Assembly (NCBI GenBank): GCA_003161255.1
Contig: PMOQ01000019.1
Location: 62,001-126,000, forward strand
Source of the DNA: Acidimicrobiaceae bacterium
Lineage (GTDB): Bacteria; Actinomycetota; Acidimicrobiia; Acidimicrobiales; RAAP-2
DNA length: 64,000 bases
Direction of reading: 5' to 3'
The notes beneath the pieces are model-generated. The model was not told where the DNA came from, made no database searches, and was given only the letters and a program-made list of their open reading frames with translations. A program made the position numbers and the translations under genes. The stretch's first letter is position 1. Each line of letters starts with the position of its first letter. Of the stretch, positions 26,084 to 56,230 are shown one piece after another.

Positions 26084-26123
26084 GCGCGACCGCCGCCCAA
26101 GTCGAGACGGAAGGAGCGACAGG

Positions 26124-26438: not shown

Positions 26439-26443
26439 CGGTG

Positions 26444-27822: not shown

Positions 27823-28478
27823 AGCACGACTTCTCGGTCTCGGTCCCGATCGAGCGCGCCTGGTCGGTACTCACCGACCTGGAGCAGATCGCGCCCTGCA
27901 TGCCCGGCGCGCAGCTCCTTGAGGTGGACGGGGATGAGTACCGGGGTGTCGTGAAGGTCAAGGTGGGACCGATAACCGCCCAGTACAAGGGGATCGCCAG
28001 GATCGTCGACATCGACCCCAACGAACATCGGGCCGTGCTTCGAGCCGAAGGTCGCGAGGCCCGAGGCCAAGGGAACGCCGCTGCGACCGTGACCGCCATC
28101 TTGGAGGAGGGACCCTCGGGGACCGATGTCCACATCACCACGGAGCTCGAGATCTCTGGCAAGGTCGCCCAGTTCGGACGGGGCGCGCTCGTCGAGGTGA
28201 GCAAAAAGCTCCTGGATCAGTTCGTCCGGGAGCTCGAAGCGAACGTGCTTCGGGCAGAGGCGGAGTCGGAAGGCGACACGCCGACCGAGGTGGCCGAGGC
28301 CGCCGAACCGCCAGCACCCGCGCCGGCTCCGACCGGTCCCCGGTTCATCGACAGTCCCGAGGCCAAACCCGTGGACCTGCTCGACGCCGCGGGGGGCTCA
28401 ATGCTGAAGCGAGTCGCCCCCTTCCTGTTCCTCGTGGCGATTCTGCTCGTGCTGGGGCGCCGTCGAAGGCGCGCTTGA
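27813..28478 (+). CDS. CoxG-family membrane-anchored SRPBCC protein
   Basis: A 221-residue CoxG-type protein. Residues 1-145 form the SRPBCC (START-like) domain with FSVSVPIERAWSVLTDLEQI and CMPGAQL. A Pro/Ala/Glu-rich linker follows, and the C-terminal has one transmembrane helix (VAPFLFLVAILLVLG) ending in an Arg-rich stop-transfer tail, so the domain faces the cytoplasm. In CO dehydrogenase systems CoxG anchors the enzyme at the membrane and links it to the quinone pool. GTG follows GGAGGA by about 9 bases and lies inside the preceding gene. Here it could serve either molybdenum hydroxylase of the window. Confidence 0.92.
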   Translation: MELKHDFSVSVPIERAWSVLTDLEQIAPCMPGAQLLEVDGDEYRGVVKVKVGPITAQYKGIARIVDIDPNEHRAVLRAEGREARGQGNAAATVTAILEEGPSGTDVHITTELEISGKVAQFGRGALVEVSKKLLDQFVRELEANVLRAEAESEGDTPTEVAEAAEPPAPAPAPTGPRFIDSPEAKPVDLLDAAGGSMLKRVAPFLFLVAILLVLGRRRRRA

Positions 28479-31928: not shown

Positions 31929-34220
31929 ATGAGCATCCTGGGCAACCGCGTCCTTCGGAAAGAGGACCAAAAGTTCCTCACGACCGGCGGCACATACGTC
32001 GAGGACGTGCCCCTCGAGGGCGCGGTCCATATCGTCTACGTGCGCTCCCCAATGGCCCACGCGCGCATCCGGTCGATCGAGACGTCCGAGGCCCTCGAGT
32101 CTCCAGGGGTGGTGGCGGTCTTCACAGCGCAGGACATCGATCTTGATCCCATGCCTCCGGGAGCGCCGTTCGCCAATCGGGCGATGACGCGGCCCTGGCT
32201 GGCCGATGGAGTGGTCCGATTCGTCGGCGACATGGTCGCGGCGGTCGTGGCGGACACCCGGGAGCGGGCAGTTGACGGCGCGGAACTGGTCTTTGTGGAC
32301 TACGAGACCCTGACGCCGGTGGTTGACGCGAGCACAGCGGCCGACAACCCGACACTCGTCCACGAGGACGCCGGGACGAACGTGGTGCTGCGGCTCCCCG
32401 ACGACTTCGTGAGCGCCGGGATCGAGCAGGTCGCCGCCGAGGTGGACCTGTTCGAGGGCTGCGACGTGGTGATCAGGCAGCGAATGGTCAATCAGCGGGT
32501 GGCTCCGTGTCCCCTGGAGGTGCGGGCGTCCGCGGCAAAGTGGGAGGACGGCCACCTCACGCAGTGGTCGACGACCCAGGCCCCCCACAGCGTGAAGGAC
32601 ACGCTGGTCCAACTGTTCGAACTGCAGCCCGACCAGGTACGGGTGATTGCACCGGACGTCGGGGGAGGGTTCGGCGCCAAGATCGGCGGTTACCCCGAGG
32701 AGCTGTTCGTCGCCTGGGTTTCCCGCCGGATCGATCGGCCCGCTCGCTGGGTGGAGACCCGGAGCGAGAGCATGATGACGCTCGGGCATGGCCGAGGACA
32801 GATCCAAGAGGCCGAGCTCGGCGGGACACGGGACGGCAAGCTGCTGGGCTACAAGCTGACCATCACCCAGGATGCCGGCGCGTACCCGAACTTCGGCGCG
32901 TTCCTCCCGGTCATGACGCGCCTGATGTTGACCGGCGTCTACGACATCACCAAGACCGAGTTCTCTAGCTGCTCCGTCGCAACCAACACCAATCCCACCG
33001 TTGCGTACAGAGGTGCCGGGAGGCCGGAAGCGACTGCGGCGATCGAGCGAATGGTCGACATCTTCGCCGATGAGATCGGCATGGACCCCGCCGAGCTCCG
33101 CCGCAAGAACCTGATCGGCAAAGAGTGTTTCCCGTTCACGACGGCCGTGGGTACCACCTACGACATCGGGGACTATGAACAGGCGCTCGACCGGGTGCTC
33201 GAAGCGGCCGGCTACGCCGAACTGCGAGAGGAGCAAAGGCAGCGTCGCGACTCGGGGGATACCAAGCAGATGGGGATCGGGTTGTCGACCTACGTCGAGG
33301 TCACCAACGGCATTCCCGGATCTGAGTTCGGCGCAGTAGAGGTCCTGGCCGACGGCAAGGCACGGGTGCGCACTGGCACCTCACCGCACGGGCAGGGCCA
33401 CGTCACTGCGTGGGCCATGTTGGTCGCCGACCAGTTGGGGATCCCGGTCGAAGACGTCGAGGTCATCCACGGCGACACCGACGAGGTCCCGAGGGGCGTG
33501 GGCACCTTCGGGTCGAAATCGCTCCAGTCCGGCGGCGTGGCCGTCCACCAGGCCGCCGAACGGGTCGTCGAGAAGGCGAAAAAGCTCGTGGCCGACCTGC
33601 TCGAAGCCAACCCGAACGACATCGAGCTGGACAAGGAAAACCGTCGCTTCCACGTCGCCGGTACACCAAGCGTGACCAAGTCGTGGGCCGAGCTGGTCGA
33701 GGCGTCGGGGGATGCAGGCCTTTCCGCGGAGGTCGACTTCGCCGCGCCGGGTCCCACGTTTCCATTCGGCGCCCACATAGTGGTCGCCGAGGTCGACACC
33801 GAGACCGGGCACGTCAGTCTGGAAAGGATCATCGCCGTCGATGACGCCGGGCGTTTGATGAACCCGCTGATCGCGGAGGGCCAGGTCCACGGCGGCCTGG
33901 CCCAGGGTGTGGCCCAGGCCCTCATGGAAGAGATGTGCTACGACGACCAGGGCAACCCGATCACAGCGAACCTGGCCGACTATGCCTTTGTGTCGGCCGC
34001 CGAGCTACCCAGCTTCGAAACCCATCCGATGGAGACACCAACGCCGATCAACCCGCTCGGGGCGAAGGGCATAGGTGAGTCCGGGACCATCGGGTCGACA
34101 CCAGCGGTCCAGAACGCCGTCGTCGACGCGCTCAGCCACCTCGGCGTGCGACATGTCGACATGCCGACCACACCGATCCGGGTCTGGAGTGCGATCAAAG
34201 AGGCGAAGGGGGACCGATGA
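31929..34220 (+). CDS. Form II CODH-like molybdenum hydroxylase large subunit (cluster 2)
   Basis: Molybdopterin-binding catalytic subunit, 763 residues. The active-site loop is A359-Y-R-G-A-G-R, the signature of form II CoxL-like proteins; true CO oxidisers of form I carry a Cys loop that is absent here, so CO oxidation is not shown. Other landmarks are [24 protein letters not shown] and [11 protein letters not shown] with the catalytic Glu. The ATG follows a G-run (GGGGGGAA). The small-subunit ATG overlaps its stop as ATGA. Order is L-S-M, unlike cluster 1. The substrate may be an aldehyde or heterocycle. Confidence 0.93.
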
Positions 34221-34687
34221 AGGTGGAGGTCGGAGTAAACGGAGTCGCGTATGAGCGCGACGTAGAGCCACGGACGCTCCTCGTCTACTTCTTGCGCAAG
34301 CTCGGGCTGACCGGAACCAACGTCGGTTGCGACACCACCAGCTGCGGTGCATGCACGGTGCTGCTCGATGGCGAATCGGTAAAGTCGTGCACCGTCTTGG
34401 CGGTGCAGGTCGACGGTCGCTCCATCACGACAATCGAAGGTTTGGCCGACGGCGAGGAACTCCACCCTATGCAACGGGCGTTCCGAGAGCACCACGGACT
34501 TCAGTGCGGATACTGCACCCCCGGCATGGTGATGGCGGCCGTCTCGTTGGTGGCTGAGAACCCGGACCTCGACGAACACCAGGTGCGCGAAGGGCTCGAG
34601 GGCAACCTCTGCCGGTGCACGGGGTACCACAACATCGTGGCCGCGGTGCTCGACGCCGCCCAATCGAGCCGTGAGGGGGCCTGGTGA
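34217..34687 (+). CDS. Molybdenum hydroxylase [2Fe-2S] small subunit (cluster 2)
   Basis: A 156-residue CoxS-type subunit. First cluster: Cys38, Cys43, Cys46, Cys58. Second cluster: Cys97, Cys100, Cys132, Cys134 in QCGYCTPG and LCRCTGY. Every ligand is present. It joins the large and FAD subunits electrically. Start ATG overlaps the large-subunit stop; its stop TGA overlaps the GTG of the FAD subunit, so all three are translationally coupled. Compared with the cluster 1 subunit it lacks an N-terminal Gly-Glu-Thr-Thr leader and begins MKVEVGVNG. Confidence 0.95.
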
Positions 34688-35505
34688 TCCCGGTTGCATT
34701 CGACTACGTGCGGGCCGAGTCGCTCGACGAGGCGATCGCCGCGCTGTCCGAGCACGGCGACGAGGCCAAACTGCTCGCCGGCGGGCACTCGCTGCTGCCC
34801 CTGATGAAGCTCCGACTGGGCACGCCAAGCGTCCTGGTCGACATCGGTCGGCTGAGTGAGCTCTCCTTTGTACGCGACGAGGACACCTACATCGCCATCG
34901 GCGCCCTGACACGGCACCACGACGTCCAGCACGACACCATCGTGCTGCGTGAGGCCCCCCTGCTGGCAGCGGTCGCTGGGCGGATCGGGGATCCGCAGGT
35001 GCGCCACCGGGGAACCATCGGTGGGTCGTTGGCCCACGCCGATCCCGCGTCGGATCTTCCTGGGGCGGTCTTGGCGCTCGACGGGACCCTGGTTGCCCGC
35101 GGGCCGGCCGGCGACCGGGAGATCCCGGCCAGCGAGTTCTTCAAGGGGTTTTTGGAGACCACGCTCGCCCCCAGCGAGGTGCTGGTGGAGATCCGGGTGC
35201 CCAAGGGGACCACCGGCCACTCGTACCAGAAGTTCGTTCGCCGGTCCCAGGACTGGGCAATCGTCGGCGTCGCAGTCGCCCGCGTCAACGGTCACGTCGG
35301 TGTCTCACTGGTCAATGTCGCCTCGACGCCGGTCCGAGCGACAGCGGTCGAACAGGCGCTGGCGTCGGGGGCTTCGGCAGCCGACGCTGCCGAACAGGCA
35401 GCCGAGGGTCTGGAACCGACTGGAGACGCCAACGCGACCCCGGAGTTCCGGCGTCATCTGGCCCGGGTGCTCACGAGGCGGGGGCTGGTCGAAGCTGGGC
35501 TCTAA
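34684..35505 (+). CDS. Molybdenum hydroxylase FAD-binding medium subunit (cluster 2)
   Basis: A 273-residue CoxM-type FAD subunit. FAD motifs are [13 protein letters not shown] near residues 38-50 and [16 protein letters not shown] near 109-124. The GTG start overlaps the small-subunit stop by 4 bases. It ends the operon; a decayed transposase begins shortly after its stop, so any further genes of this operon may have been lost or displaced by the insertion. The C-terminal is complete, ending [13 protein letters not shown], as in relatives. Confidence 0.93.
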
Positions 35506-36464: not shown

Positions 36465-36975
36465 AGGTACACCTTTCTGATCTCCTCCCGCCCGGCAGAC
36501 GGCTGAGCGATCGCAAGATAGGTCCAGAGAGCAGCTGAGTCAACGGGTCGAGGGAGCTATCGGTCCGATCAACGATGCTTCGCAGAACGTGGTCCGGAAA
36601 CTCGGCTTCGCATTCCGGAACAGGCGATCGTGAGGTCTGCCCTGCAATACCGCGTCCTCGACTGAGCGTCACCGAGATGACGACCGCAGCGCGTCCGGCG
36701 GATACGTCATGGTCCGGTAGAGCGGATACATCATGGTCCGGTAGAGGCAGTGCCAGCGACAGGCGGACTCGCGTGCCGCCGGTGACCAACTTGCTCGCCC
36801 CACCTGTTTGGGTTGCCTCTGAATCGACTCCGCCAGAATGTGATCTATCGCAGGTCCTTCTCGTAGAGAGCGATCCGCGTGCCCGACATGGGAGAAATTG
36901 GAGATTGGGTAAGGTGGTCAAATAGCCTTTGCCGGAGCGGATGGTGCGGTGAGCGGATTCCATGGAGGTGACGTG
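36465..36975. other. Long intergenic region between divergent cupin and amidohydrolase genes
   Basis: About 510 bases without a believable gene; the open frames here give biased, domain-free products. It holds a 24-base tandem repeat at 36698-36745. Near the cupin start, TATCTT and GCGATCGCTCAG (read on the minus strand around 36502-36523) may be a -10 element followed by a degenerate half-site of the TGAGC-N4-GCTCA family. Confidence 0.5.
36698..36745. repeat. 24-base direct tandem repeat, two copies
   Basis: GCGGATACGTCATGGTCCGG followed by TAGA is repeated at once with a single base change (G to A in the ninth position). It lies about 230 bases upstream of the amidohydrolase start and may be a duplicated binding site or a simple slippage product. 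Confidence 0.6.
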
Positions 36976-38151
36976 ATGCTTCAGTTGGCTGATGGTCTAC
37001 GGGTGGTCGACGCAGACTCACACATGACCGAGCGGCACGATCTGTTCACCGAGCGGGCTCCGAAGGGATATGAGGACAAGGTCCCGCATGTCGAGCGGCT
37101 TGACGGCCAGGACATGTGGGTTATCGAGGGCAAGACGTTCGGCAAGGCTGGCTCCGGCGGCACTATCGACCACGAAGGGAAGAAGCACCCCTTCCGGGAC
37201 TCCCAGGGCGGGACGTGGGGCATCGGCGACGTTCACCCGGCGGCGTGGGACCCCAAGGAGCGCCTCGGCTTGATGGACACCTTCGGCATCGACACCCAGG
37301 TGCTCTACCCGAACTCCATCGGCATTGGCGGTCAGAACCTGCGCAACTCGATCAAGGACCCCACGATCCTCGAGCTCTGTGTCCAGCTCTACAACGACGC
37401 CATGGCGGAGGTGCAGGAAGAGTCTGGCAACCGATTGTTGCCCATGCCGATCATGCCTGCGTGGGACATCGCCGGATGCGTCCGTGAGGCCCAGCGCTGC
37501 GCCGAGATGGGCTACCGAGGGGTCAACATGACGGCCGACCCGCAGGACTCGGGGTCGCCCGACCTGGGTCACCGGGCGTGGGACCCGTTTTGGGAAGTCT
37601 GTGCCGATCTGAACCTGCCGGTGCACTTCCACATCGGCGCGAGCCAGACGGCCCTCTCGTATTACGGCACGACGTATTGGCCGAGCCAGGATGACTACAT
37701 AAAGCCGGCCATCGGTGGTGCGTCGCTGTTCCAGAACAACTCGCGTGTGCTGCTCAACAGCGCGTACTCGGGGATGTTCGACCGCCACCCGAACCTCAAG
37801 ATGGTGTCGGTCGAGAGTGGGATCGGATGGGTGCCGTTCATGCTCGAAGCCATGGACTACGAGCTCGAGGAGAACGCGCCGGAACACTTCCACAAGTTGC
37901 AGAAGCGTCCATCGGAGTACTTCCGGTCCAACTGGTACGCCACGTTCTGGTTCGAGAACGGCCGCGGCGACTTCCAGCACCTCATCGACAGCGTCGGTGA
38001 GGACACGATTATGTTCGAGACCGACTTCCCGCACCCGACCTGTCTGCACCCGAACCCGGTCGAGATGGTGAGCGAACAGGTCGCCTCCCTGCGACCGGAC
38101 ACCCAGCGCAAGGTGATGGGCGGGAACGCGGTCAAGCTCTACAGGCTGTAG
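36976..38151 (+). CDS. ACMSD-like amidohydrolase (copy 1)
   Basis: TIM-barrel amidohydrolase of the amidohydro_2 group (ACMSD, gamma-resorcylate decarboxylase and relatives), 391 residues; such enzymes hydrolyse or decarboxylate with one or two metal ions. The first metal motif, normally HxH, reads DADSHMTE; a central His is in PVHFHIGAS, and the C-terminal catalytic Asp is in FETDFPHPT. ATG 36976 follows GGAGGTG; an in-frame GTG nine codons upstream lacks that support. It is paralogous to the gene at 44369-45538 (shared VLYPN, VSVESGxGxxPF, FETDFPHPT and SLHP/CLHP). Both copies neighbour a cupin gene. Confidence 0.92.
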   Translation: MLQLADGLRVVDADSHMTERHDLFTERAPKGYEDKVPHVERLDGQDMWVIEGKTFGKAGSGGTIDHEGKKHPFRDSQGGTWGIGDVHPAAWDPKERLGLMDTFGIDTQVLYPNSIGIGGQNLRNSIKDPTILELCVQLYNDAMAEVQEESGNRLLPMPIMPAWDIAGCVREAQRCAEMGYRGVNMTADPQDSGSPDLGHRAWDPFWEVCADLNLPVHFHIGASQTALSYYGTTYWPSQDDYIKPAIGGASLFQNNSRVLLNSAYSGMFDRHPNLKMVSVESGIGWVPFMLEAMDYELEENAPEHFHKLQKRPSEYFRSNWYATFWFENGRGDFQHLIDSVGEDTIMFETDFPHPTCLHPNPVEMVSEQVASLRPDTQRKVMGGNAVKLYRL

Positions 38152-38349
38152 CACGCCTCGATGGCCCGCAGGGTCTTGCTCCGCCCGACCATGCCCTCTC
38201 CGAAGAGGCACTAGCCCCACATACTCGTGGTTGACGCTCGGCGGACCTCAAGAGAACGTGATGCCTGCGAAACGGATGCAACGACCTTGGCTGTGTGACC
38301 GCCGACAGATTGCACCGCTGGCATGGCGCATTTCGGCACGGCGGGACAC

Positions 38350-39522
38350 ATGAGCGGTCGTCCGCTCGACAAATTTGAGGACGATGTTGTCATCTCAGGC
38401 ATAGGGCAATCGGCCGTCGGCCGTCGTCTCGGCCGGTCTCCGCTCAGCCTCACGATCGATTCGATCACGGCCGCCGTCAACGACGCGGGCCTATCTTTCG
38501 ACGACGTCGACGGGCTGGCGAGCTATCCCGGAGGAGGGACCTCGCTCGGTCCAGGCTTCGCCGGACCATCGTTGGCCGACGTCTACGACGCCATTGGCCT
38601 CGAGCCCACGTTCCTCATGGGTAACTTTGAAGGGCCAGCGCAGCTTGGACCAATCGTGAACGGCTGCTTGGCGATCAGTGGACGCCTCGCCCGCCACGTG
38701 ATCGTCTACCGCACCGTGACCGAGGGGTCGGCACGAATAGCGGCCAGGGGGACCCATGCGGAGGCACCGGAGTGGATCACCGCGTTCGGCGGCGGCCCGG
38801 CACCGATCGGGTACGCCCTCTTGGCCCAGCGACACTTCCACGATTACGGCACCTCCCGCCAGGAGTTGGCACAGATCGCTCTCACGGCCCGTGCACACGC
38901 CCGGCTCAACCCGAGCGCGGTGCTCCGCGATCCGCTGACCCTGCAGGACTACCTGGATGCTCGCATGATCGCAGACCCGCTGTGCCTCTTTGACTGTGAT
39001 GTGCACTGTGACGGGTCGACGGCGATCGTCTTGTCCCGCGTCGAATATGCGGCCGATGCACCCCAGCGCGTCGTGCACTTCGAGGCGATGGGTCTTGCCC
39101 CCCCGCCTCGATCTCAATACGCCCAGCACGTCGATCTCCAACCAGGGCGACGAGCGGCCGAGGGAATGTGGCTGCGATCGGACCTCCGACCCGACGATGT
39201 CGACGTGGCCGGTCTCTACGACGGATTCAGCATCCTTGCCATGTTCTGGCTGGAGGCGCTCGGGTTCTGCGAGATAGGCGAGAGCGGAGCCTTCGTTGAG
39301 GGGGGAAGTCGGATCTCCCTCGGGGGACAGCTTCCGATCAACACGAATGGGGGCCAGCTGTCGGGCGGCCGTCTGCACGGTCTGGGGTTTGTCCACGAGA
39401 TGTGCCTCCAACTGCGTGGCCAAGCCGGAAACCGCCAGGTCCCGGACGCCCGGGTGGCCGCTATCGGACTTGGCGCACTGCCCTACGTGGGATGCATGCT
39501 CCTGCGAGCAGCCGACCGGTGA
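38350..39522 (+). CDS. Thiolase-fold protein, Ltp2/aldolase-like
   Basis: Thiolase-superfamily protein of 390 residues of the lipid-transfer (SCP2-thiolase-like) branch. The nucleophilic Cys of thiolases is absent: its position reads MGNFEGPAQLG. The segment AGLYDGFSILAMFWLEALGF keeps the YDxF motif of Ltp2-type retro-aldolases, which cleave side-chain C-C bonds together with a DUF35 partner, while the second Tyr motif (GYxHG) is replaced by GRLHG. ATG 38350 follows GGCGGGA; an in-frame ATG nine codons earlier is possible. Its stop overlaps the GTG of the DUF35 gene. Retro-aldol or acyl-binding role is inferred. Confidence 0.85.
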   Translation: MSGRPLDKFEDDVVISGIGQSAVGRRLGRSPLSLTIDSITAAVNDAGLSFDDVDGLASYPGGGTSLGPGFAGPSLADVYDAIGLEPTFLMGNFEGPAQLGPIVNGCLAISGRLARHVIVYRTVTEGSARIAARGTHAEAPEWITAFGGGPAPIGYALLAQRHFHDYGTSRQELAQIALTARAHARLNPSAVLRDPLTLQDYLDARMIADPLCLFDCDVHCDGSTAIVLSRVEYAADAPQRVVHFEAMGLAPPPRSQYAQHVDLQPGRRAAEGMWLRSDLRPDDVDVAGLYDGFSILAMFWLEALGFCEIGESGAFVEGGSRISLGGQLPINTNGGQLSGGRLHGLGFVHEMCLQLRGQAGNRQVPDARVAAIGLGALPYVGCMLLRAADR

Positions 39523-40505
39523 ACGGCGCGCTGCGGGCCCCACACGTCGTCGCCTTCTCATACCGGCGCAGTGTCGGAGGCGCCGATCGCCGCTTTCTCA
39601 GCGGCTTGGCCGAAGCTGAGATCTGGGGGAGCCGGGCAGCGGATGGGCGCGTCCTCGTGCCTCCACTCGATCACGACCCCGAGACTGGGGCAACGACGGA
39701 GGAGTTCGTCCGTCTCGGCGAGGTGGGCGTTGTTCGTGCCTGGACGTGGATGGCAGAGCCGGGCCCGGAGCACCCGAGGGAACGGGCGTTCGCCTACGCG
39801 CTGGTTGAGCTCGATGACGCCGATACCGCGTTGCTTCATGTCGTCGATGTCGACAACGAGAGCGAGATGTCGACAGGCATGCGCGTCAGGGCGGACTGGC
39901 GGTCGGTAAGGGTTGGAAGCATCCTGGACATCAGGGCCTTCGTGCCGTTGACGGCAGTGCGGCCAGTCTCGGGCACCGGACGGCGTGCTGGGCGGGGAAC
40001 CATCCCACGCGGCGAAGCCTCCGTATCGGTCGAGGTGGTCGCGGACATCCACCTGGAATACATGTACGAACCGGGGCTCGTGGCATCGGCGTTTCTCCGT
40101 TCGATCGCAGAGCGGAGGATCACGGGTGGGCGCTGTTCGTCGTGTGGTGGTGTCTACGTACCAGCTCGTTCGAGATGCCCGGCCTGCCGCGTGGGTCCGA
40201 TGGCCGAGGTCGAGCTTGACGACCGCGGCGTGATCACCTCCTACACCGTCGTGCATGTGCCGTTCGACGGGATGACCCTAGAGCTCCCGTTTGTGTCCGC
40301 CTGGGTCCGGTTGGACGGCGCGGATGTTTCCATCCCCCACCTCCTCGGCGAGGTGCCGCCCGAAGAGGTCCGAGTGGGCCAGCGGGTGGAGGCCGTCTGG
40401 ATGCCCAACGACGAGTTGGCCCCGACGTGGGAGAGCATCCGCTACTTCCGCCCAACCGGCTCCGCCCCGGAGCCCGAGGATACGGCAGCGACGTGCGACG
40501 GATAG
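39519..40505 (+). CDS. Double DUF35 (OB-fold, zinc-ribbon) protein
   Basis: A 328-residue protein that seems to contain two DUF35 modules. The C-terminal one (about residues 190-320) is complete, with zinc ligands Cys206, Cys209, Cys220 and Cys223 followed by an OB-fold (VITSYTVVHVPFDGM). The N-terminal one has the OB-fold features (GEVGVVRAWTWM, FAYALVELDDADTALLHVVD) but its ribbon position reads AADGRVLVPPLDHDPETG without any Cys. DUF35 proteins clamp acyl-CoA and bind thiolases, aldolases or HMG-CoA synthases. Overlaps: GTGA with the gene before, 13 bases with the one after. It is therefore the probable scaffold of the four-gene cluster. Confidence 0.88.
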   Translation: MNGALRAPHVVAFSYRRSVGGADRRFLSGLAEAEIWGSRAADGRVLVPPLDHDPETGATTEEFVRLGEVGVVRAWTWMAEPGPEHPRERAFAYALVELDDADTALLHVVDVDNESEMSTGMRVRADWRSVRVGSILDIRAFVPLTAVRPVSGTGRRAGRGTIPRGEASVSVEVVADIHLEYMYEPGLVASAFLRSIAERRITGGRCSSCGGVYVPARSRCPACRVGPMAEVELDDRGVITSYTVVHVPFDGMTLELPFVSAWVRLDGADVSIPHLLGEVPPEEVRVGQRVEAVWMPNDELAPTWESIRYFRPTGSAPEPEDTAATCDG

Positions 40506-41512
40506 CCATCGTCGGCTTCGCGAGCGAGGTGGTGCTCGAACCCGACGGACGCAACGAGGCCGAGCTGGTCGCGCCGGTCGTCGACCGGGCCCTTGCCGCG
40601 GCGAAGGTGTCAGCTGCAGACATCGGTGTCGTCGGCTCTGCCGGCTCCGAGTTCCTCAATGGCGTTGTCGGGACCGTCATGGGGGCATTCGATGGGCTCC
40701 CTTGTTGGCCGCCGCTCACCCATTCTCATCTCGAGGCCGATGGCGCGTTCGCGCTCTATGAGTCCTGGGTTCGCCTCATGGCCGGCGAAGCAGAGGTGGC
40801 GCTTGTCTGCGCTTTCAGCCGGCCGCTCGCAACCGACCGGGTAAGTGTGCTCGGTATGCAGTTCGATCCGTATCTCGTGGCGCCCCTTGCACCCGGCCCC
40901 CGCAGCATCGCCGCGTTGCAGGCGCGTGTCCTGATCGATTCCGGCCGCTACGGCGAGGCCGACTTGGCCCGGGTTGTAGGCGCTCGGCGGAACGACGCCC
41001 GGCCGGACGAGCTTGTCAGCCAGCCCTATGTCGCGTCCCCGCTCCGTGCCCTCGACTGCTCGACCGTCTGCGCCGGCGCCGCCGCCGTCGTGTTGGCCGC
41101 CGACGGCTGGGCGACCGCCTCGAGCGCGCACCCGGCGTGGATCACGGGAATCGATCAGCGGATTGAAACCGCTGGGTTGGGGAGGCGTGATCTTGCGATA
41201 TCCCCATCGACACATGCCGCGGCGAGCCGCCTCGGGCTCCCCGGGTCGGTCATCGATGTGGCGGAGGTGCATGCGCCGTTCAGCCATCAAGAGTTGATCG
41301 TGGTGGACGCCATCGGTGCGGCCGAGGTTGGATCGCTGAACCCCTCCGGAGGGGCCTTACCCGCCGATCCCATCATGGCGACTGGTCTCATCCGGATTGG
41401 AACGGCGGCGCAGACGATCCTGGACGGGCACGCCGAACGGACCGTCGGACACGCCACGAACGGACCGTGCCTGCAACACAACCTGCTTTGCCTGATGGAG
41501 CGAGACCGATGA
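40493..41512 (+). CDS. Thiolase-fold protein without catalytic Cys (subunit-like A)
   Basis: A 339-residue thiolase-like protein. The nucleophile position (THSHLEADGAFALYES) has no Cys, and the late loop reads NPSGGALPADPIMATGLIRI without the catalytic His of GHPxGATG. A His remains in VAEVHAPFSHQEL. It therefore cannot be an ordinary thiolase; it is likely a subunit or an aldolase-like enzyme. GTG is used because VRRIAIVGFASEV is the natural start of the fold, and it overlaps the DUF35 gene by 13 bases. Together with the next gene, which shares the NPSGG...GLIR pattern, it may form a heterodimer. Confidence 0.85.
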   Translation: MRRIAIVGFASEVVLEPDGRNEAELVAPVVDRALAAAKVSAADIGVVGSAGSEFLNGVVGTVMGAFDGLPCWPPLTHSHLEADGAFALYESWVRLMAGEAEVALVCAFSRPLATDRVSVLGMQFDPYLVAPLAPGPRSIAALQARVLIDSGRYGEADLARVVGARRNDARPDELVSQPYVASPLRALDCSTVCAGAAAVVLAADGWATASSAHPAWITGIDQRIETAGLGRRDLAISPSTHAAASRLGLPGSVIDVAEVHAPFSHQELIVVDAIGAAEVGSLNPSGGALPADPIMATGLIRIGTAAQTILDGHAERTVGHATNGPCLQHNLLCLMERDR

Positions 41513-42663
41513 ACGCGCGTTGTGCGGTCGTGGGTGTCGGACAGACCCACCACGCGGCTTCCCGTCGTGACGTAACGCTGGGTGGTCTCGTCAGGGAAGC
41601 GGCAGAACGGGCACTTCTCGATGCCGACCTTGGGTGGAATGAGATCGATGCCGTCGTACTTGGCAAGGGTCCGGACATCATGGAAGGGCTGATGTCCCCG
41701 GAGCTGTACCTTGCCGACGCGCTCGGTGCGGTAGGCAAGCCGATCCTGCGCGCGTACACCTCCGGGAACGCCGGAGGGGTGGCGGCAACCATGGGCGTCA
41801 GTCTCATCTCCGCCGGAATCCATGCGAGGGTCCTCGTTGTGGCCTTCGAGAAGCAGTCTGAGTCGAGCGCGGCCGGCTCCACCCTGCAGCACCTCCCCTT
41901 TGAGGCGCGCTGGCAGGGGGGCACCGGGAGCTTGTTTGGGGCGATCTGCCGCGAGTACATCCACCGTTCGGGGGCACCGGCCCACATCGGCGATGTGGCG
42001 GCCCTGAAGGACCGCCAGAACGCGGTGCGCAACCCCTTCGCGCAGGTCCGCAGGGGGGACATCACCCTGGAGGCAATCGCGGCCTCGAGGATGCTGTGGG
42101 ATCCGATCAGACTCCTGCATTCATCACCCTCCTCCGACGGTGCGTGTGCCGTCGTCCTGTCCGACGAGCGGACGGCAGCCCGATACGGCAGTCCGGCATG
42201 GATTCACGGGTGCGCGCTGAGGACGGAGCCACCGATTGCCCCAGAGCACGACAACGTTGACCCGCGCGCCGGACGCGAGTGCGCGAACGCCGTGTACCGG
42301 CAGGCGGGGATCGCCGACGCCCTCCGTGACCTCGATGTCGCCGAGTTGTTCGTTCCCTACAGCTGGATGGAGCCGATGCTGCTTGAGAACCTTGGCTTCG
42401 CGCCACCTGGGAGGGGTTGGCGGCTCGTCGAGGACGAGACGACAACGGCTCACGGGGACCTTCCGGTCAACCCCTCCGGAGGTCTCCTGGGCGCAAACCC
42501 AATCGGAGCAGCGGGCCTGATCCGTTTCGCCGAGGCGGCAATGCAAGTGAGCGGACGGGCAGGGCCGCACCAACTCGACGGCGTGCGGGTCGCGTTGGGC
42601 CATGCAGCCGGGGGCTACTCAAACTGCGTCGCGATGTGGGTAGTCGGAAGCGATCGACCGTGA
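41509..42663 (+). CDS. Thiolase-fold protein without catalytic Cys (subunit-like B)
   Basis: A 384-residue thiolase/lipid-transfer-family protein starting on an ATGA overlap. The active Cys region is RAYTSGNAGGVAATMG, with no Cys; the late loop is NPSGGLLGANPIGAAGLIRF, again lacking the His. ELFVPYSWMEPMLLENLGF corresponds to the ELHDCFA region of thiolases. The protein is full length. A heteromer with the preceding protein and the double DUF35 protein is the simplest reading. The gene converges on the CoA ligase 4 bases away, which may supply its acyl-CoA substrate. The reaction is unknown. Confidence 0.87.
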   Translation: MNARCAVVGVGQTHHAASRRDVTLGGLVREAAERALLDADLGWNEIDAVVLGKGPDIMEGLMSPELYLADALGAVGKPILRAYTSGNAGGVAATMGVSLISAGIHARVLVVAFEKQSESSAAGSTLQHLPFEARWQGGTGSLFGAICREYIHRSGAPAHIGDVAALKDRQNAVRNPFAQVRRGDITLEAIAASRMLWDPIRLLHSSPSSDGACAVVLSDERTAARYGSPAWIHGCALRTEPPIAPEHDNVDPRAGRECANAVYRQAGIADALRDLDVAELFVPYSWMEPMLLENLGFAPPGRGWRLVEDETTTAHGDLPVNPSGGLLGANPIGAAGLIRFAEAAMQVSGRAGPHQLDGVRVALGHAAGGYSNCVAMWVVGSDRP

Positions 42664-42667
42664 CGGA

Positions 42668-44278
42668 TCAGGCGGTGCGAACCGGCCGACCGAGTCGCGC
42701 ATCCCAGGTTCGAGCATTCAGAGGATCGACGCGCAACGCCGGCTTCTTGACCCGCTTCATTGCTTCGGTCCGTTCGGGGTCCACGACGAACTCGATGTAG
42801 CGCGGCACCATAAAGGCTGGCATACGTTCGATCAGGAACCGGTGCAGCTCCTCGGGGGTGACGGTCGTCTCGTCCAGGAGAACGACACATACCTTGACCT
42901 CGTCCTCACCCTCGTCGGAGGGCACGCCGATTGCCGCTGTCTCCGAGACGGCGGGGTGGTCGTTCACATAGGCCTCGACCTCGGCCGAGGAGATGTTCTC
43001 GCCGCGCCGACGCATCGAATCCTTGATCCGATCGACAAATTGATACCGGCCGTTCTTGTCCCGCACCACCCCATCGCCTGTATGGAACCATCCGTTGCGC
43101 CACGCCTCGGCAGTCTTGTCAGGCATCCCGAAGTAGCCGATCATCATGCGCCACGGATCGGTGGTTCGCACCAGCAGCTCACCGATCTGGCCCCTCGGAA
43201 CCTCGTAGTCGTTCTCGTCCGCCGCTCGGACCTCGTATCCCGGTGTCACCCACTTCGCCGTGGAAGCCGGATCGGCCGACACGTCGGGCCCTGCATAGAG
43301 CGCGGTACCTACTTCCGTGTTGCCAAACTGGGTCCGCATTTGTATCCCGAAGCGCTGTTTGAACTCGTCGATCCGGGCCACCACCGGCGCCCCGGCGACA
43401 TAGCGAAGAGGATTGTCGAGATCGTCAGGCCGGGGTGGTTGATCGAGCAGCCAGTTCATCATCGCCGGGATCAACGCAGTTACGGTGCAGCCGAACGCCC
43501 GGATGTCGTCCCAGAAATCCTGGGTCCTGAAGGCGTCGCGGAGTACGACCTGGCCCCCGGGAAAGCCGAACCAGGCCAGAGGCAGCATGCCCGAGAGATG
43601 GAACACGGGGAACGGGCAGTAGTAGATGTCGTCGCCGGTCATGTCGATCCACGTCTCGTTGGGCCACAGACGTCCCCACGGAACCAGCACGCCCTTGGAT
43701 GGACCGGTCGTTCCGGAGGTATAGCTGATGCAGGCCAGCTCATGGCGCTCCGGTACGGCGAGGTCGGTCGCCGGCCGAGCGCTCTCCCAGAGCTCCGTCG
43801 CCGCGACCAGCCGGATGGGGAAGTCCGAGGGGAGTTCGCCGTCAGCGGCATCGGGCACGATCACCAGCTTCAGCAGATCCAGGTCAGGTGCCAGCTCGGC
43901 GACGCGGTCAAGGAACTCCATCTCACAGATCATGTGCGTCGCCCGACAGTTGGCGAGGATGTAGGCGAGGGCCCGACCTCGGAAGTCGGTGTTGACTCCG
44001 GTGTGAACCGCCCGCAGCCACGCGAGGCCCAGCCAGTGCTCCTCTGCCGTAACCGATGTTCGCCCCATGGCGGGCACGTTGTCGCCGGCCACGATCCCGG
44101 CCCCGCGAAAGGCGTCGGCCCAACGCAGGGCGTCGTCGTGGAACTGCCCGTAGGACCGGGTGGTCCCGCCAACCTGGTGCAGGAAAGGCCGGTCGGGCTC
44201 CCGCTCCGCCCACGACCTGATCACCTGGGGAAGGGTCTCGGAGGGTTCGAATGTCGGCTGCGGACGCCCGGTCGGCAT
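42668..44278 (-). CDS. AMP-dependent acyl-CoA synthetase/ligase, CaiC-like
   Basis: ANL-family CoA ligase, 536 residues. Adenylation motif SYTSGTTGPSKGVLVPWG, A5-like TQFGNTEVGTALY, HTGDGVVRDKNGRYQFVDR, and RRRGENISSAEVEAYV. The A10 region is TEAMKRVKKPALR, where Lys is kept though the usual Gly before it is changed to Met. The pattern resembles crotonobetaine/carnitine-type ligases. Several in-frame ATGs lie upstream; 44278 is used since the further ones run into the palindrome at 44309. It is divergent from the second amidohydrolase with only 90 bases between, so the two are likely co-regulated. Confidence 0.92.
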   Translation of the reverse strand: MPTGRPQPTFEPSETLPQVIRSWAEREPDRPFLHQVGGTTRSYGQFHDDALRWADAFRGAGIVAGDNVPAMGRTSVTAEEHWLGLAWLRAVHTGVNTDFRGRALAYILANCRATHMICEMEFLDRVAELAPDLDLLKLVIVPDAADGELPSDFPIRLVAATELWESARPATDLAVPERHELACISYTSGTTGPSKGVLVPWGRLWPNETWIDMTGDDIYYCPFPVFHLSGMLPLAWFGFPGGQVVLRDAFRTQDFWDDIRAFGCTVTALIPAMMNWLLDQPPRPDDLDNPLRYVAGAPVVARIDEFKQRFGIQMRTQFGNTEVGTALYAGPDVSADPASTAKWVTPGYEVRAADENDYEVPRGQIGELLVRTTDPWRMMIGYFGMPDKTAEAWRNGWFHTGDGVVRDKNGRYQFVDRIKDSMRRRGENISSAEVEAYVNDHPAVSETAAIGVPSDEGEDEVKVCVVLLDETTVTPEELHRFLIERMPAFMVPRYIEFVVDPERTEAMKRVKKPALRVDPLNARTWDARLGRPVRTA

Positions 44279-44308
44279 GTCGCCACGGTACCCTGTCATC
44301 TGCCGTGG

Positions 44309-44368: not shown

Positions 44369-45538
44369 ATGGCCGGTGCAGGAACCGCGATCCGCGTGAT
44401 CGACGCCGACACGCACCTGACCGAGCCGGTCGATCTTTGGACGGCACGGATACCTGCTCGCTTCCGCGATGAGGCACCGAGCGTTCGTTTTCACGAGCCG
44501 AGCGGCATGTGGCGCTGGGTCATCGGCGGCCGCTGGTGCAGCCTGGTCGGCAACTACAGCATGGCCGGATGGCGGGAGTTCCCCCCCTCGTGCCCGCCGA
44601 CGTTGAGCGACGCCGATCCGGCTTGCTACGACGCCAAGGCCAGGCTCGCCCATATGGACGCCTTTGGTATCTACGCGCAGGTGCTGTACCCCAACATCAT
44701 TGCCTTCGAGGGCCATGCGTTCATGGCACTCAAGGACGACGCGCTCAAGTTGGCCTGTGTTCAGACCTACAACGACTACGTGGTGGAGTTTGCTTCGTTG
44801 GCCCCCGAGCGTTTCGTTCTTCTCACAACCCTGCCCTTCTGGGACCTCGACGCCTCAATTGCTGAGCTGCGGCGGTGCCATGCCATGGGTCATCGCGGCG
44901 TTCTTTGGGCGGCAACGTTCGAGAAGCATGGGCTGCCAGATTTCGTTGACTCGCACTGGGACCCCTTGTATGCAGAGGCGCAGGATCTCGGGATGTCCAT
45001 CAACTTTCACGTTGGCGTAGGAAATACTGCCGAGGAGATCGAACAGGCGATGAACCGTGAGGGGTACGACCCGGCGTTTCAAACGGCTCGGTCTTCGATG
45101 TCGTTCGTTGGGAACGTAAGGATGATCGGGACCTTGCTGACGAGCGGCTTGTGTGAGCGATTCCCCCGGCTCGACTTCGTGTCTGTCGAGAGCGGATTCG
45201 GTTATATCCCGTTCCTTCTCGACGCGCTCGACTGGCAGTGGTTCGGTACGGGGGCCCGTGATCGATATCCCGAGCGCCTGCTCCCGAGCGAGTACTTCCG
45301 CAGGCAGGTTTACGCGATGTTCTGGTTCGAGAAGGACTCTTTGGAGTTACTGCCGAAGTACGACGACAACGTCATGTTCGAAACTGATTTTCCGCACCCG
45401 ACGAGCCTGCATCCGGGGCCGGCAAGCTATTCGCCGGGGCCGGCTGAGATCATCCGACGGGACACCGACATCGTCGGCGAGGCGGTCATGCGGAAGGTGC
45501 TTCAGGAAAACGCCTGCCGGGTGTACCACATCGACTGA
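44369..45538 (+). CDS. ACMSD-like amidohydrolase (copy 2)
   Basis: Amidohydro_2-type TIM-barrel enzyme of 389 residues, paralogous to the gene at 36976-38151. Metal/catalytic motifs: DADTHLTE at residues 12-19, FHVGVG in the middle, and FETDFPHPTSLHP near the C-terminal. Compared with copy 1 the region after the first motif differs (RWVIGGRWCSLVGNYS), so substrate specificity has probably diverged. GAGGGGAG precedes the ATG. It is followed convergently by a cupin gene of the same type that adjoins copy 1, an association kept after duplication. Decarboxylation or hydrolysis of a ring-cleavage-like acid is the usual chemistry of the group. Confidence 0.92.
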   Translation: MAGAGTAIRVIDADTHLTEPVDLWTARIPARFRDEAPSVRFHEPSGMWRWVIGGRWCSLVGNYSMAGWREFPPSCPPTLSDADPACYDAKARLAHMDAFGIYAQVLYPNIIAFEGHAFMALKDDALKLACVQTYNDYVVEFASLAPERFVLLTTLPFWDLDASIAELRRCHAMGHRGVLWAATFEKHGLPDFVDSHWDPLYAEAQDLGMSINFHVGVGNTAEEIEQAMNREGYDPAFQTARSSMSFVGNVRMIGTLLTSGLCERFPRLDFVSVESGFGYIPFLLDALDWQWFGTGARDRYPERLLPSEYFRRQVYAMFWFEKDSLELLPKYDDNVMFETDFPHPTSLHPGPASYSPGPAEIIRRDTDIVGEAVMRKVLQENACRVYHID

Positions 45539-47686: not shown

Positions 47687-48895
47687 GTGAGTCAAATGTC
47701 AAAGTTGTGGCGCGGCGCTGGGGTAGTGGCGCTGGTGGTCGGACTCGGTTCGTTCTATGCGATCAGTACGCAAGCCTCAGCCGGCGCTGCGACGGGGGCG
47801 CCGATCACGGTCGGTGTCGTGTGCACCTGTTCCGGATCGTTCGGAGCTGACATCATGGCCGCCGAGCAGACCTACGAGGCCTGGGTGGACACCACGAACA
47901 AGGCCGGCGGGATCGATGGGCACAAAATTAAGCTCACCCTCGAAGACGACGCCGGGAACCCCGGAACCTCCGTCTCCGATGCCCAGACCCTCGTTTCGGA
48001 CCATGTGGACGCGATCCTGGACTTTTCGATCGTCGATCAGGCGTGGGCCTCCACGGTCCAGGCATCGAAGATCCCCGTCGTTGGTGGGGACGAGACGGAG
48101 ACGCCGTACTACACGAGTCCAGACTTCTACCCGGAAGGTCAGACGAATGACTCGGTGACCTATGCGAACGTGCTGACGGCCAAAAAAGCTGGAGCCACCA
48201 ATCTCGGCGACCTCTATTGCGCCGAAGCGCCATCGTGTGCGGAGGGCGTCCCACCGATCGAAGCAGCTGGTCAGAAGCTGTCAGTACCGGTCGTCTACAA
48301 CGCGGAGATCGCCGCGACAGCGCCCAACTACACCGCCCAGTGCGTGGCGGCGCAACAGGCAAAAGTGAGCGCGATCTTCGTCGGCGATGCATCTGCCATC
48401 ATCTCGAGGGTGGCTGCGAACTGCGCGCAGCAGAGCTACACCCCGATCTGGATCACCGAAGGCGAGGGCTTCGGCTTACAGATGGCTGCTACCCCCGGGC
48501 TCAAAGACAAGTTGTGGTCTGACTACGGCACAGCGCCGTTCTTCGACCACATTCCAGCCATCTCGGCGATGAACAAGGCGGTGGACAAGTACTACCCTGG
48601 CCTGCGTAACAACCAGAATGCATGGACCCAAATCGCAGCAGAGGCCTGGGCGTCCGGAATCCTCCTCGGTGACGCCGTCACAGCCAGCCACATCGGAACC
48701 ACTGGCACTCCGGGCCCGGCAGAGATTGTGAAGGGGCTCCAATCGCTGAAGAACGACACCTTGCAGGGCATGGCACCGCCGCTGAACTTCAAGGCAGGCA
48801 AGGATCACTCCATCGACTGCTGGTTCACGGCACGTGTCCAGAACGGGGCGCCCACGGTGGTGAACGCTGGCCGCGTGACCTGCGAGAAGGGCTAG
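47687..48895 (+). CDS. ABC transporter substrate-binding protein, branched-chain amino acid type
   Basis: Extracytoplasmic binding protein of the LivJ/LivK (HAAT) type, 402 residues. An N-terminal signal peptide is evident: a short basic start (SKLWRG), a hydrophobic core (GVVALVVGLGSFYAI) and small residues before the likely cut near AGA. The mature part begins PITVGVVCTCSGSFGADI, the usual first strand, and AGGIDGHKIKLTLEDDAGNP matches the family. There is no lipobox Cys in the leader. Cysteines are unusually many in the mature domain. GTG follows GGGGAGGG. HAAT systems also import amides, urea and aromatic or cyclic acids, and the catabolic setting favours one of these over amino acids. 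Confidence 0.93.
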   Translation: MSQMSKLWRGAGVVALVVGLGSFYAISTQASAGAATGAPITVGVVCTCSGSFGADIMAAEQTYEAWVDTTNKAGGIDGHKIKLTLEDDAGNPGTSVSDAQTLVSDHVDAILDFSIVDQAWASTVQASKIPVVGGDETETPYYTSPDFYPEGQTNDSVTYANVLTAKKAGATNLGDLYCAEAPSCAEGVPPIEAAGQKLSVPVVYNAEIAATAPNYTAQCVAAQQAKVSAIFVGDASAIISRVAANCAQQSYTPIWITEGEGFGLQMAATPGLKDKLWSDYGTAPFFDHIPAISAMNKAVDKYYPGLRNNQNAWTQIAAEAWASGILLGDAVTASHIGTTGTPGPAEIVKGLQSLKNDTLQGMAPPLNFKAGKDHSIDCWFTARVQNGAPTVVNAGRVTCEKG

Positions 48896-51780: not shown

Positions 51781-51787
51781 CCTCGAC

Positions 51788-52483
51788 ATGCTGACCCTGC
51801 ATTCGGTGACGGCCGGGTATGGCGAGACCACCGTGCTGCGCGACGTGAACTTCACCGTTGGTGACGGCGAGGTCGTTGCCCTGCTTGGGCCGAACGGCGC
51901 CGGCAAGTCGACGCTGCTGCGGACAGCCACGGGGTTCGTGAAACCTCGGTCCGGACGCATTGAGTTCGGCGGGGCGGACCTGACCGGTCACCGGCCCCAC
52001 GCCTTCGTGAGACGTGGCATTTGCCACCTGCCGGAAGGTCGGGGGATCTTTCCGTCGCTCACCGTTCGGGAGAATCTGAGGATTCAGGCTCGCTCACGCG
52101 ACATGAACGAAGTGGTCGCGGAGGTGGCCGAGCTGTTTCCCGCCCTTGGTAGCCGGTTACGTCAGACCGCCGGAAGCCTTTCGGGGGGCGAGCAACAGAT
52201 GCTCGCCCTGTCCAGGGCGTACCTCACCCGGCCCAAGCTGGTCCTCATCGACGAGGCGTCACTCGGCTTAGCGCCGCTGCTCGTCGACAGAATCTACGAC
52301 GCCCTCCGCCAGCTCGTCGAGCGTGGCCTCTCCCTGGTCATCGTCGAACAGTACGTGCAAAAGGCGCTCGATCTCGCCAGCACCGTCTACATTCTGAATC
52401 GGGGCGAAGTCATCCATGTCGGCAAGGCGAACGAACTCAACAGCGACGAGATTTACCAGAGATACCTCGGGCTCTCGTCCTGA
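51788..52483 (+). CDS. livF: Branched-chain-type ABC transporter ATPase, LivF-like
   Basis: Second ATPase of the importer, 231 residues. Walker A G34-PNGAGKST, Q-loop region, signature LSGGEQQMLALSRA, Walker B VLIDEASLGLAPLLV with the LivF-typical LGLAP, and the H-loop replaced by VEQ (VIVEQYVQ), as is normal for LivF. It pairs with the LivG half of the fused protein. The ATG lies 8 bases after the fusion's stop but has no clear ribosome site; another in-frame ATG at 51749 would overlap the fusion by 32 bases. Coupled translation is likely either way. Confidence 0.92.
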   Translation: MLTLHSVTAGYGETTVLRDVNFTVGDGEVVALLGPNGAGKSTLLRTATGFVKPRSGRIEFGGADLTGHRPHAFVRRGICHLPEGRGIFPSLTVRENLRIQARSRDMNEVVAEVAELFPALGSRLRQTAGSLSGGEQQMLALSRAYLTRPKLVLIDEASLGLAPLLVDRIYDALRQLVERGLSLVIVEQYVQKALDLASTVYILNRGEVIHVGKANELNSDEIYQRYLGLSS

Positions 52484-53810: not shown

Positions 53811-54935
53811 CTACCCCTCGGCAAGCGCTCCCTGGAGCGTGGCGCCATAGGTCACCCCGATGTCTCCGCCGGCGTCGTGGCGCTGGAGTTCGGGAAGCAC
53901 CTCGGAGACGAACAGGTCGAAGCAGGCCTTCGTCTCTTCGGGTGGCATGCCACCGAAGGAGAGAGGGACCACCAGGGCCCCGGCGTCGGTCCGCCGGACG
54001 TAGTCCAGCAGTTTTTCGGTTACCTGCTCGGGCGTGCCCCACACCTGCAGGTCGGCGAGGAAGCTGTTGAACCGCTCCAGCCCGTGCTTGGCGATGTTGT
54101 TGGCTAGCGCGCCGTAGTACTCGTAGCCCTCGATCTCCGCGAACCCGACATTGTCGAATTCGTAGTGCTCGACCGTCGAGCGAGCCCAGCGCTGCAGATA
54201 GACGTCCCGAAGCCGCTGGGCCGCTTCCTGGTCGCGGCTCACGCCGGCGACCACGACCAGGACCGGCTTGGGCGCCTCCACCCCGTTGATCTCCAAGAAG
54301 CGCTTGCGATACGCGGCCAGCTCCGCCTCCGCGGTCTCCCACGGCTTTTGGGCGATCACCATTAACCCGACCCCCAGGCGGGCCATCAGCTCCATCGACT
54401 CGGGCGAGACGGCTGACGCGAACGTCCGGCCCTTGAAGCTGCCGCACGGGCGCGGTCGGATCGGGGTGCGTGCCTGCTGGTACAGCTCGCCGTCGGACTC
54501 GATGTAGCCAGTCTCAAGCGCCTCGAGGATCGCCTCGGTGTACTCGGTGAACCGCCGACGCGACTCACCCATCTCGACCCCGAAGCCGTTGAACTCGACC
54601 CGGCCGAGACCCCGGCCGATCCCGAGGATCGCCCGCCCTTCGGAGAGTTGATCGAGCACCGAGAAACTCTCCACCACCCGCACCGGGTCGTGCCACGGAA
54701 GGACCGTCACCATCGTGCCGAGCTTGACCCGCCGCGTCTGCCCCGCAACCCACGCGAGGAACATCGGAGTCTGCGAAGTGAGCTGGTAGTCCGAGAAGTG
54801 GTGTTCTGACGCCCACACCGAGTCGAAGCCGGCGTCCTCGGCCCGAGCGGCCAGGGCCAGCTCCCGGTGGTACGCCTCACCGTCGGTGACCTGGCCATCC
54901 AGGTTCGCGAACTGTAGACCTAGTCCAATGTGCAT
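53811..54935 (-). CDS. LLM-class (luciferase-like) flavin-dependent monooxygenase
   Basis: Luciferase-like TIM-barrel enzyme of 374 residues. The N-terminal MHIGLGLQFANL, then GFDSVWASEHHFSDY with the EHH motif common to alkanal-type monooxygenases, LGTMVTVLPWHDPVRVVE, and GRAILGIGRGLGRVEFNGFG. The C-terminal GTPEQVTEKLLDYV closes the barrel. It is longer and quite different from the luciferase-like gene at 1.6 kb. A monooxygenase using FMNH2 or an F420 enzyme are both possible. It is the last gene of the minus-strand unit 53.8-61.2 kb. The start has GAGG and a GTAAGCGCTC half-site directly upstream. Confidence 0.92.
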   Translation of the reverse strand: MHIGLGLQFANLDGQVTDGEAYHRELALAARAEDAGFDSVWASEHHFSDYQLTSQTPMFLAWVAGQTRRVKLGTMVTVLPWHDPVRVVESFSVLDQLSEGRAILGIGRGLGRVEFNGFGVEMGESRRRFTEYTEAILEALETGYIESDGELYQQARTPIRPRPCGSFKGRTFASAVSPESMELMARLGVGLMVIAQKPWETAEAELAAYRKRFLEINGVEAPKPVLVVVAGVSRDQEAAQRLRDVYLQRWARSTVEHYEFDNVGFAEIEGYEYYGALANNIAKHGLERFNSFLADLQVWGTPEQVTEKLLDYVRRTDAGALVVPLSFGGMPPEETKACFDLFVSEVLPELQRHDAGGDIGVTYGATLQGALAEG

Positions 54936-55075: not shown

Positions 55076-56230
55076 CTATCGGATCGCCTCGGCGGCCCGA
55101 AGCCTGGCGATGTCCTCACCGGAGAACGCCCAGTCCGAGAGCGCCTCGTCCGTGTGCTGGCCCGGCCGGGTCGGCGGTCCCGTGACCGTTGGGACGGTCC
55201 GGCTGAAGCGCGGGGCCGGAGCCGGTTGGACGACGCCAGCGAGCTCGATGAACGTCCTTCGCTCGCGGATGTGCGGATGCTGCGGAGCCTCGTCGGGACC
55301 GAGTACCGGCGCGAAGCAGGCGTCGGTGCCCTCAAGCAGCCCGCACCACTCGTCCCGGGACCTCGTCTTGATCACGGCGGCCAGACGCCGCTTCATCGAT
55401 GGCCACGAGTCCCTGTCCGACGGATCGGGAACCGGGCCGCCGCCGTCGACATCGTCGGCCAGCCCCGTGATCCGCAGCATCTCCTCGCAGGACGTCGGAT
55501 CAATGGGCCCAAGCGAGATGTAGCCGCCGTCTGCCGTTTCGTAGACCTCGTAGAACCAGGCCCCAGTGTCGAGCAGATTGGTGCCCCTCTCGCCCCATTG
55601 CCCCGACGCTCGAAGGCCGTGCATCATCCCGGCCAGCAGCGCCGCGCCATCGACCATGGCCGCGTCGATCACCTGGCCCTTCCCGGACCGGGAGGCCTCG
55701 ACAATCCCGCAAACGATCCCGAAGGCCAGCAGCATGCCGCCGCCTCCAAAGTCCCCCACGAGGTTGAGCGGTGGTACCGGCGGCCCCCCGATCCTCCCGA
55801 TCATGGACAGGGTGCCCGAGAGGGCTATGTAGTTGATGTCCCGGCCGGCCGCGGCGGCATACGGCCCGGTTTGACCCCAGCCCGTCATGCGCCCGTAGAT
55901 GAGCTTCGGCTGCCGAGCCAGACACTCGTCGGGGCCGACGCCCAGCCGTTCGGTCACTCCGGGGCGAAATCCCTCAATCAGTGCGTCCGCCTGTTCGACC
56001 AGGCGCAGCACCGCCTCCCGACCCTCCGGACGCTTAAGATCGACACCAACCGACCGGCGACCCCGGCCGCCGACGTCCCAAAACGGTGGGGCCGCGCCGT
56101 CACGAACAGCATCGGCCCGGTCGACACGAAGCACCTCGGCGCCCATGTCCGACAGCATCATGGCGGCGAACGGACCGGGACCGATGCCGGCCAATTCGAT
56201 GATCCGATAGCCCGTGAGCGGACCAGCCAC
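55076..56230 (-). CDS. CaiB/BaiF family protein, alpha-methylacyl-CoA racemase-like with altered active site
   Basis: A 384-residue member of the racemase branch: [22 protein letters not shown] at the N-terminal, [13 protein letters not shown], and VGDFGGGGM holding the conserved Asp. In the known racemase (MCR/AMACR) the His of AGHDINY and the Glu of AIEPQF form the second base; here they read AGRDINY and PIDPTS, so His is Arg and Glu is Asp. Simple epimerisation by the known mechanism is therefore doubtful, and CoA transfer or another reaction is open. GTG follows GGGAGGAG. It lies 52 bases behind the SDR gene in the same unit. Confidence 0.9.

Follow-up and report, generated by a model that had tools for sequence, protein, structure and literature searches.

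What reaction could be carried out by three thiolase-fold proteins that lack the thiolase nucleophile and are encoded together with a double DUF35 protein, and do the four proteins represent a new system? This question is raised by a cluster of four overlapping genes, P1-P2-P3-P4, on the plus strand at 38350-42663 (38323-42663 from the earlier start of P1) of the window, the whole 64,000-nucleotide stretch of an Acidimicrobiaceae genome that we analysed. The cluster is real, conserved, and mostly known, and the added P1 together with changed active-site residues makes it a small, distinct new branch. Its genes are as follows:

38323..39522, plus strand: P1, Ltp2-like thiolase-fold protein (PRK06158/PRK07855-like; Pfam Thiolase_C_1, E 7.9e-31)
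39519..40505, plus strand: P2, double DUF35 in one chain (start GTG; two OB_ChsH2_C matches)
40493..41512, plus strand: P3, short Ltp4-like thiolase-fold protein (PRK07937 relative; start GTG)
41509..42663, plus strand: P4, Ltp3-like thiolase-fold protein (PRK08313; start ATG)

The genes overlap by 4 bases (GTGA) between P1 and P2, by 13 bases between P2 and P3, and by 4 bases (ATGA) between P3 and P4. Reading the sequence thus bears out the overlap at every junction described in an earlier note on this DNA, as well as the placement of a double DUF35 protein between thiolase-fold genes: P2 contains two OB_ChsH2_C domains, with P1 before it and P3 and P4 after it. An in-frame ATG at 38350 offers a second possible start for P1. 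With 43.6 and 62.8 bits for OB_ChsH2_C (DUF35, PF01796), P2 passes the Pfam cut-off of 27.1 twice. Its predicted model (pLDDT 86, pTM 0.54) displays two confident domains and a disordered linker (residues 146-168). The second domain carries a zinc ribbon (CxxC...CxxC), and the first is devoid of zinc cysteines. Degeneration of the first DUF35 was considered and ruled out, because the commonest first-DUF35 patterns (130 loci) have no zinc cysteines either; their absence is thus not a defect of P2.

The top fold match of the P2 model is 6ok1_B, the DUF35 partner of Ltp2, and the nearest solved structure to P1 is the Ltp2 aldolase itself (6ok1_A, E 3.5e-44), which substantiates the comparison with Ltp2-ChsH2 drawn in the earlier note. 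On NCBIfam, the top matches of P1 stay far under the cut-offs. P3 adopts a thiolase fold in its AlphaFold model (pLDDT 87.9), with the archaeal acetoacetyl-CoA thiolase 6et9_C as top fold match (Z 39.8). The archaeal complex resembles the cluster also in its DUF35 bridge; however, its thiolase has the Cys and the HDCF motif, and no HMG-CoA synthase is seen in the cluster. On PRK07937, its nearest NCBIfam model, P3 reaches 364.2 bits, under the cut-off of 419, and is hence a relative of the Ltp4 family rather than a counted member. P4 scores 526.5 bits on PRK08313 (Ltp3), over the NCBIfam cut-off of 514.

The arrangement of P2-P3-P4 recurs far beyond this genome. We scanned GTDB genomes with an Ltp4 alignment and retained the best 80 loci, 78 of which show the complete order DUF35, DUF35, Ltp4, Ltp3, the remaining two ending at contig ends. 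In these 78 loci, the two DUF35 domains are encoded by one gene or by two, always before Ltp4, and Ltp3 follows. The loci include Rhodococcus, Mycobacterium sp. E796, Streptomyces, Kibdelosporangium, Chloroflexi, and Myxococcota, and P2-P3-P4 follows the same order. In Rhodococcus tukisamuensis and Mycobacterium sp. E796, the Ltp4/Ltp3 pair reaches 642-756 bits on PRK07937 and PRK08313. The double DUF35 of Mycobacterium sp. E796 is in the fused form, and Rv3521 of M. tuberculosis is presumably a double DUF35. In the M. tuberculosis genome, Rv3521 is described as a conserved hypothetical protein, Rv3522 as ltp4, and Rv3523 as ltp3 (PMC6429209). Wilbrink 2012, as cited in PMC8708139 and PMC4761994, characterised ltp3 and ltp4 of Rhodococcus genetically as aldol-lyases acting on C24-branched sterol side chains, whose degradation is published to require them there, and Ltp3/Ltp4 has been described as a proposed heteromeric aldol-lyase (PMC6678751). 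The module is widespread in Actinobacteria, Chloroflexi, and Myxococcota; in the literature found, it is known from genetics, not from structure or enzyme assay, and no activity is shown there for any Ltp3/Ltp4-DUF35 complex.

Since the module is widespread and ltp3/ltp4 have been published genetically, P2-P3-P4 is not an unknown system, and its assignment to a new four-gene system is ruled out by the same order in GTDB loci. Judged by its sequence, P2-P3-P4 is a diverged copy of the DUF35-Ltp4-Ltp3 module. The earlier statement that the arrangement fits no known system must be corrected accordingly, as the addition of P1 is its only unusual part. With Rv3521-Rv3522-Rv3523 and ltp3/ltp4 of R. 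rhodochrous, the cluster shares two DUF35 domains, a short Ltp4, and Ltp3 in the same order and on the same strand, as well as the lack of the thiolase Cys and an Asn at the GHP His position of Ltp3. In contrast, P1 lies upstream, P3 falls under the family cut-off, and P4 has FVPY for YVPF and YTSGNAGG for HTAGSVGG.

P1 stands immediately upstream of the module in only four genomes found, all belonging to the taxonomic order of the window genome, probably Acidimicrobiales: the window genome (G000), G018 (record JAJPJV010000003), G197 (JAKBAM010000002), and G736. The four-gene order, for which the earlier note had proposed to look in other genomes, thus recurs in three of them and is not due to chance. 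Among 397 genomes of the order searched with P4, an identity of at least 75% is confined to G000, G197, and G736, with the next best match at 60%; G018, the fourth genome of the quartet, came from a sample of relatives and not from this order set. Apart from G000 itself, no P4 match above 58% occurs in a phylum sample of 396 genomes. The quartet forms a clade with a support of 1.0 in both the Ltp3 tree and the P1 tree, and its stem in the Ltp3 tree is long (0.57). Identities within the quartet amount to 67-76% for P1, 63-68% for P3, and 75-81% for P4.

Active-site positions were read from one alignment that combined P1, P3, and P4 with Ltp2 and two thiolases of solved structure. Where thiolases carry the nucleophilic Cys, P4 has Gly, P3 has Glu, and P1 has a Cys-free insertion loop (EGPAQLG). 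The HDCF motif corresponds to YDGF in P1, HAPF in P3, and FVPY in P4, placing Tyr in P1 and Phe in P4 at the His position, with His retained in P3. The GHP His is replaced by Arg in P1, Asp in P3, and Asn in P4. The alignment thereby confirms that all three folds lack the catalytic Cys and extends the previous observation of a late His missing in two of them, since P1 has lost the GHP His as well. P3 may lack an active site altogether.

Acyl-enzyme chemistry of thiolases needs the nucleophilic Cys and the GHP His. As both are replaced in P1, P3, and P4 alike, thiolase chemistry appears unlikely for any of the three. The same replacements weigh on a model in which the complex performs acyl transfer or Claisen-type chemistry, like PhlABC or the benzoylsuccinyl-CoA thiolase BbsAB, instead of retro-aldol cleavage. 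Relatives of P4 with known structure include PhlC and BbsB, and PhlB and BbsA turn up as fold matches of P2; nevertheless, the loss of both residues from all three proteins makes this chemistry very unlikely in our estimation. The missing thiolase residues and the relatedness to Ltp2 rather lend support to the view, raised as a possibility in the earlier note, of Cys-less, aldolase-type carbon-carbon lyases.

In the alignment, P1 retains the base Tyr of the YDxF/YDxY motif of Ltp2/Sal-type aldolases. Its YDGF is invariant in 32 of 32 relatives and aligns with YDHF of Ltp2, whose catalytic base is Tyr294 according to the aldolase report (PMC12329534). The same paper gives Tyr344 of Ltp2 and Cys304 of Sal as the second catalytic residue of characterised aldolases. 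This second residue is missing in P1, which has Arg at the Tyr344 position of Ltp2 and Gly at the Cys304 position of Sal; moreover, Gly takes the position of Ltp2 His296, as numbered in that paper. Consequently, we do not claim membership of P1 in the Ltp2/Sal group and retain the reading that it works like these enzymes. The cluster thus resembles the steroid side-chain aldolases Ltp2-ChsH2 (6ok1) and Sal-Shy (9myr) in the thiolase fold of P1 with its YDxF base Tyr and in the P2 domains, which match the fold of the DUF35 partner. Where they have one DUF35 domain, the cluster has two unlike ones fused in a single chain. Ltp2 and Sal usually work with a MaoC hydratase joined to their DUF35 protein; no such hydratase was seen in the Pfam scan, which covered part of the window genes.

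P4 reads FVPYSW where 117 of 122 aligned Ltp3 rows have YVPFSW, and FVPY is common to all four quartet genomes. Without the near-invariant YVPF, P4 is a variant of Ltp3 (PRK08313) rather than a plain member. Since YVPF has its Tyr at the position of the base Tyr294 of Ltp2, the Ltp3 of the quartet has either lost the base Tyr or shifted it by three residues; P4 has Phe at the base position and a Tyr three residues further.

The DUF35 partner of P1 is a second point in which the quartet stands apart. Of the 28 P1-type loci examined in genomes other than the quartet (L025-L052), 18 have a DUF35-like ORF overlapping or next to the P1-type gene; the queries used detected none at the others. Each of the other four P1-type genes of the window genome adjoins a DUF35 domain, in one case across opposite strands. 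Unlike these, the P1 of the quartet has no DUF35 gene of its own and only P2 alongside. A separate DUF35 gene was not found beside P1 in L013 and L083, where the ORFs, assessed by eye, correspond to an amidohydrolase-type protein and a short-chain dehydrogenase. With P2 as the sole DUF35 protein beside the quartet P1, a sharing of P2 is possible. However, the second domain of P2 is closer to the second DUF35 of the ordinary module (mostly ~40-50%) than to the DUF35 of P1 partners (~25-43%).

These features could be explained if P1 were the only active lyase, with P3 and P4 as non-catalytic partners and the module rebuilt around P1 in the quartet. In each of the four genomes, the change from YVPF to FVPY has removed from P4 the Tyr that corresponds to the Ltp2 base, and P1 retains its Tyr, which would agree with such a takeover, as would the lack of a DUF35 gene belonging to P1. 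However, P3 and P4 are about as conserved within the quartet as P1, and P4 retains a Tyr nearby, so that we consider P1 as sole lyase improbable. Similarly doubtful is a single assembly in which the three Cys-less thiolase folds would share the two DUF35 domains of P2 and divide a multi-step side-chain cleavage between the Tyr of P1, the His of P3, and the shifted Tyr of P4.

We rather think it probable that the products of the cluster are retro-aldol carbon-carbon lyases of the Ltp2/Ltp3-Ltp4 type, with P3 and P4 as an unequal pair capped by P2, P1 as a second aldolase, and, as substrate, a bulky acyl-CoA that is probably no intact 3-ketosteroid. Sal and Ltp2 have been solved as symmetric DUF35-aldolase-aldolase-DUF35 tetramers (PMC12329534). 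By analogy, the two unlike DUF35 domains and two unlike thiolase folds of the module suggest an aldolase pair of unequal subunits, each bearing a DUF35 cap. We infer that P3 and P4 would form this Ltp4-Ltp3 pair as the counterpart of the symmetric aldolase dimer, and that the fusion in P2 would hold the two caps together. After activation of the substrate by the adjacent acyl-CoA ligase or a CoA-transferase, the lyases would cut away part of the side chain of a bulky 3-hydroxyacyl-CoA, giving a short acyl-CoA and a carbonyl product. P1 would be an Ltp2-like aldolase using the Tyr of YDxF as base, and might serve an adjacent round of this pathway or make use of a DUF35 domain of P2. With its shifted Tyr and added P1, the quartet constitutes a natural test of the residues needed for the reaction and of what sets the substrate.

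Several genes around the cluster, with syntenic counterparts in G018 for a number of them, bear on the substrate:

36949..38151, plus strand: amidohydrolase (Amidohydro_2; PF04909, E 9.2e-35); a 55% identical protein lies near the cluster in G018
42668..44299, minus strand: AMP-forming acyl-CoA ligase (PF00501); beside the cluster in G018 (76%) and G736 (78%)
44369..45538, plus strand: second amidohydrolase (PF04909); near the cluster in G018 (83%) and G736 (78%)
53811..54935, minus strand: luciferase-like oxidoreductase (PF00296); near the cluster in G018 (76%) and G197 (74%)
55076..56230, minus strand: family III CoA-transferase (PF02515); near the cluster in G018 (80%), G197 (69%), and G736 (61-71%)

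Acyl-CoA dehydrogenases are also among the neighbours. This gene content fits an acid that would be activated to its CoA ester and then shortened. In G038, G055, and G058, the ketosteroid ring hydroxylase KshA is encoded no more than a few kb from the ordinary module. In a further difference from the DUF35-Ltp4-Ltp3 module, a search for KshA gave no match in G000, G018, and G197, the three of the four quartet genomes examined, an absence that is weakened for G000 by a genome completeness of only 87%. Several genomes with the ordinary module likewise have no KshA match; the module itself may thus not be limited to sterols. For the quartet, the substrate is probably not an intact steroid. These data also bear on whether the cluster is simply an ordinary sterol module for the degradation of C24-branched side chains, as in Rhodococcus. 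The gene order is the same, the genes are homologous, and a role of ltp3/ltp4 has been published. However, besides the missing KshA, P3 lies under the PRK07937 cut-off, whereas 25 of 61 genomes hold a match over it, and the quartet has its own FVPY motif and long stem in the Ltp3 tree, which renders an ordinary sterol module unlikely.

Assignment of the luciferase-like protein to the Rv3520c family was rejected as weak (52.8 bits versus 335). Between the luciferase-like gene and a set of transporter genes, a kinase-like protein with EcKL and APH family matches is encoded on the plus strand (52547-53635). The transporter set comprises a single 927-aa ORF (48997-51780, plus strand) that combines branched-chain amino acid permease domains with an ABC ATPase, with a periplasmic binding protein on one side (47726-48895) and another ATPase on the other (51701-52483). 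The plus strand further encodes, at 2526-4865, a protein of 779 aa containing two stretches of CoA_transf_3 and, at 14418-17924, an oxidoreductase of 1168 aa in which POR and DUF6537 domains are combined. Two gene sets for molybdenum hydroxylases of the xanthine dehydrogenase type are located at 19318-23004 (minus strand) and 31929-35505 (plus strand), with the accessory genes CoxE, AAA ATPase, XdhC, MobA-like, and CoxG at 24022-28478; an 82% identical large subunit of a molybdenum hydroxylase is encoded near the quartet cluster of G736. At the right edge of the window, another pair of DUF35 (62481-62876) and thiolase-like (62899-64000) genes is found on the plus strand. The thiolase-like ORF is nearest to PRK08256, and the DUF35 gives a domain match at G000:C28:124625-124807.
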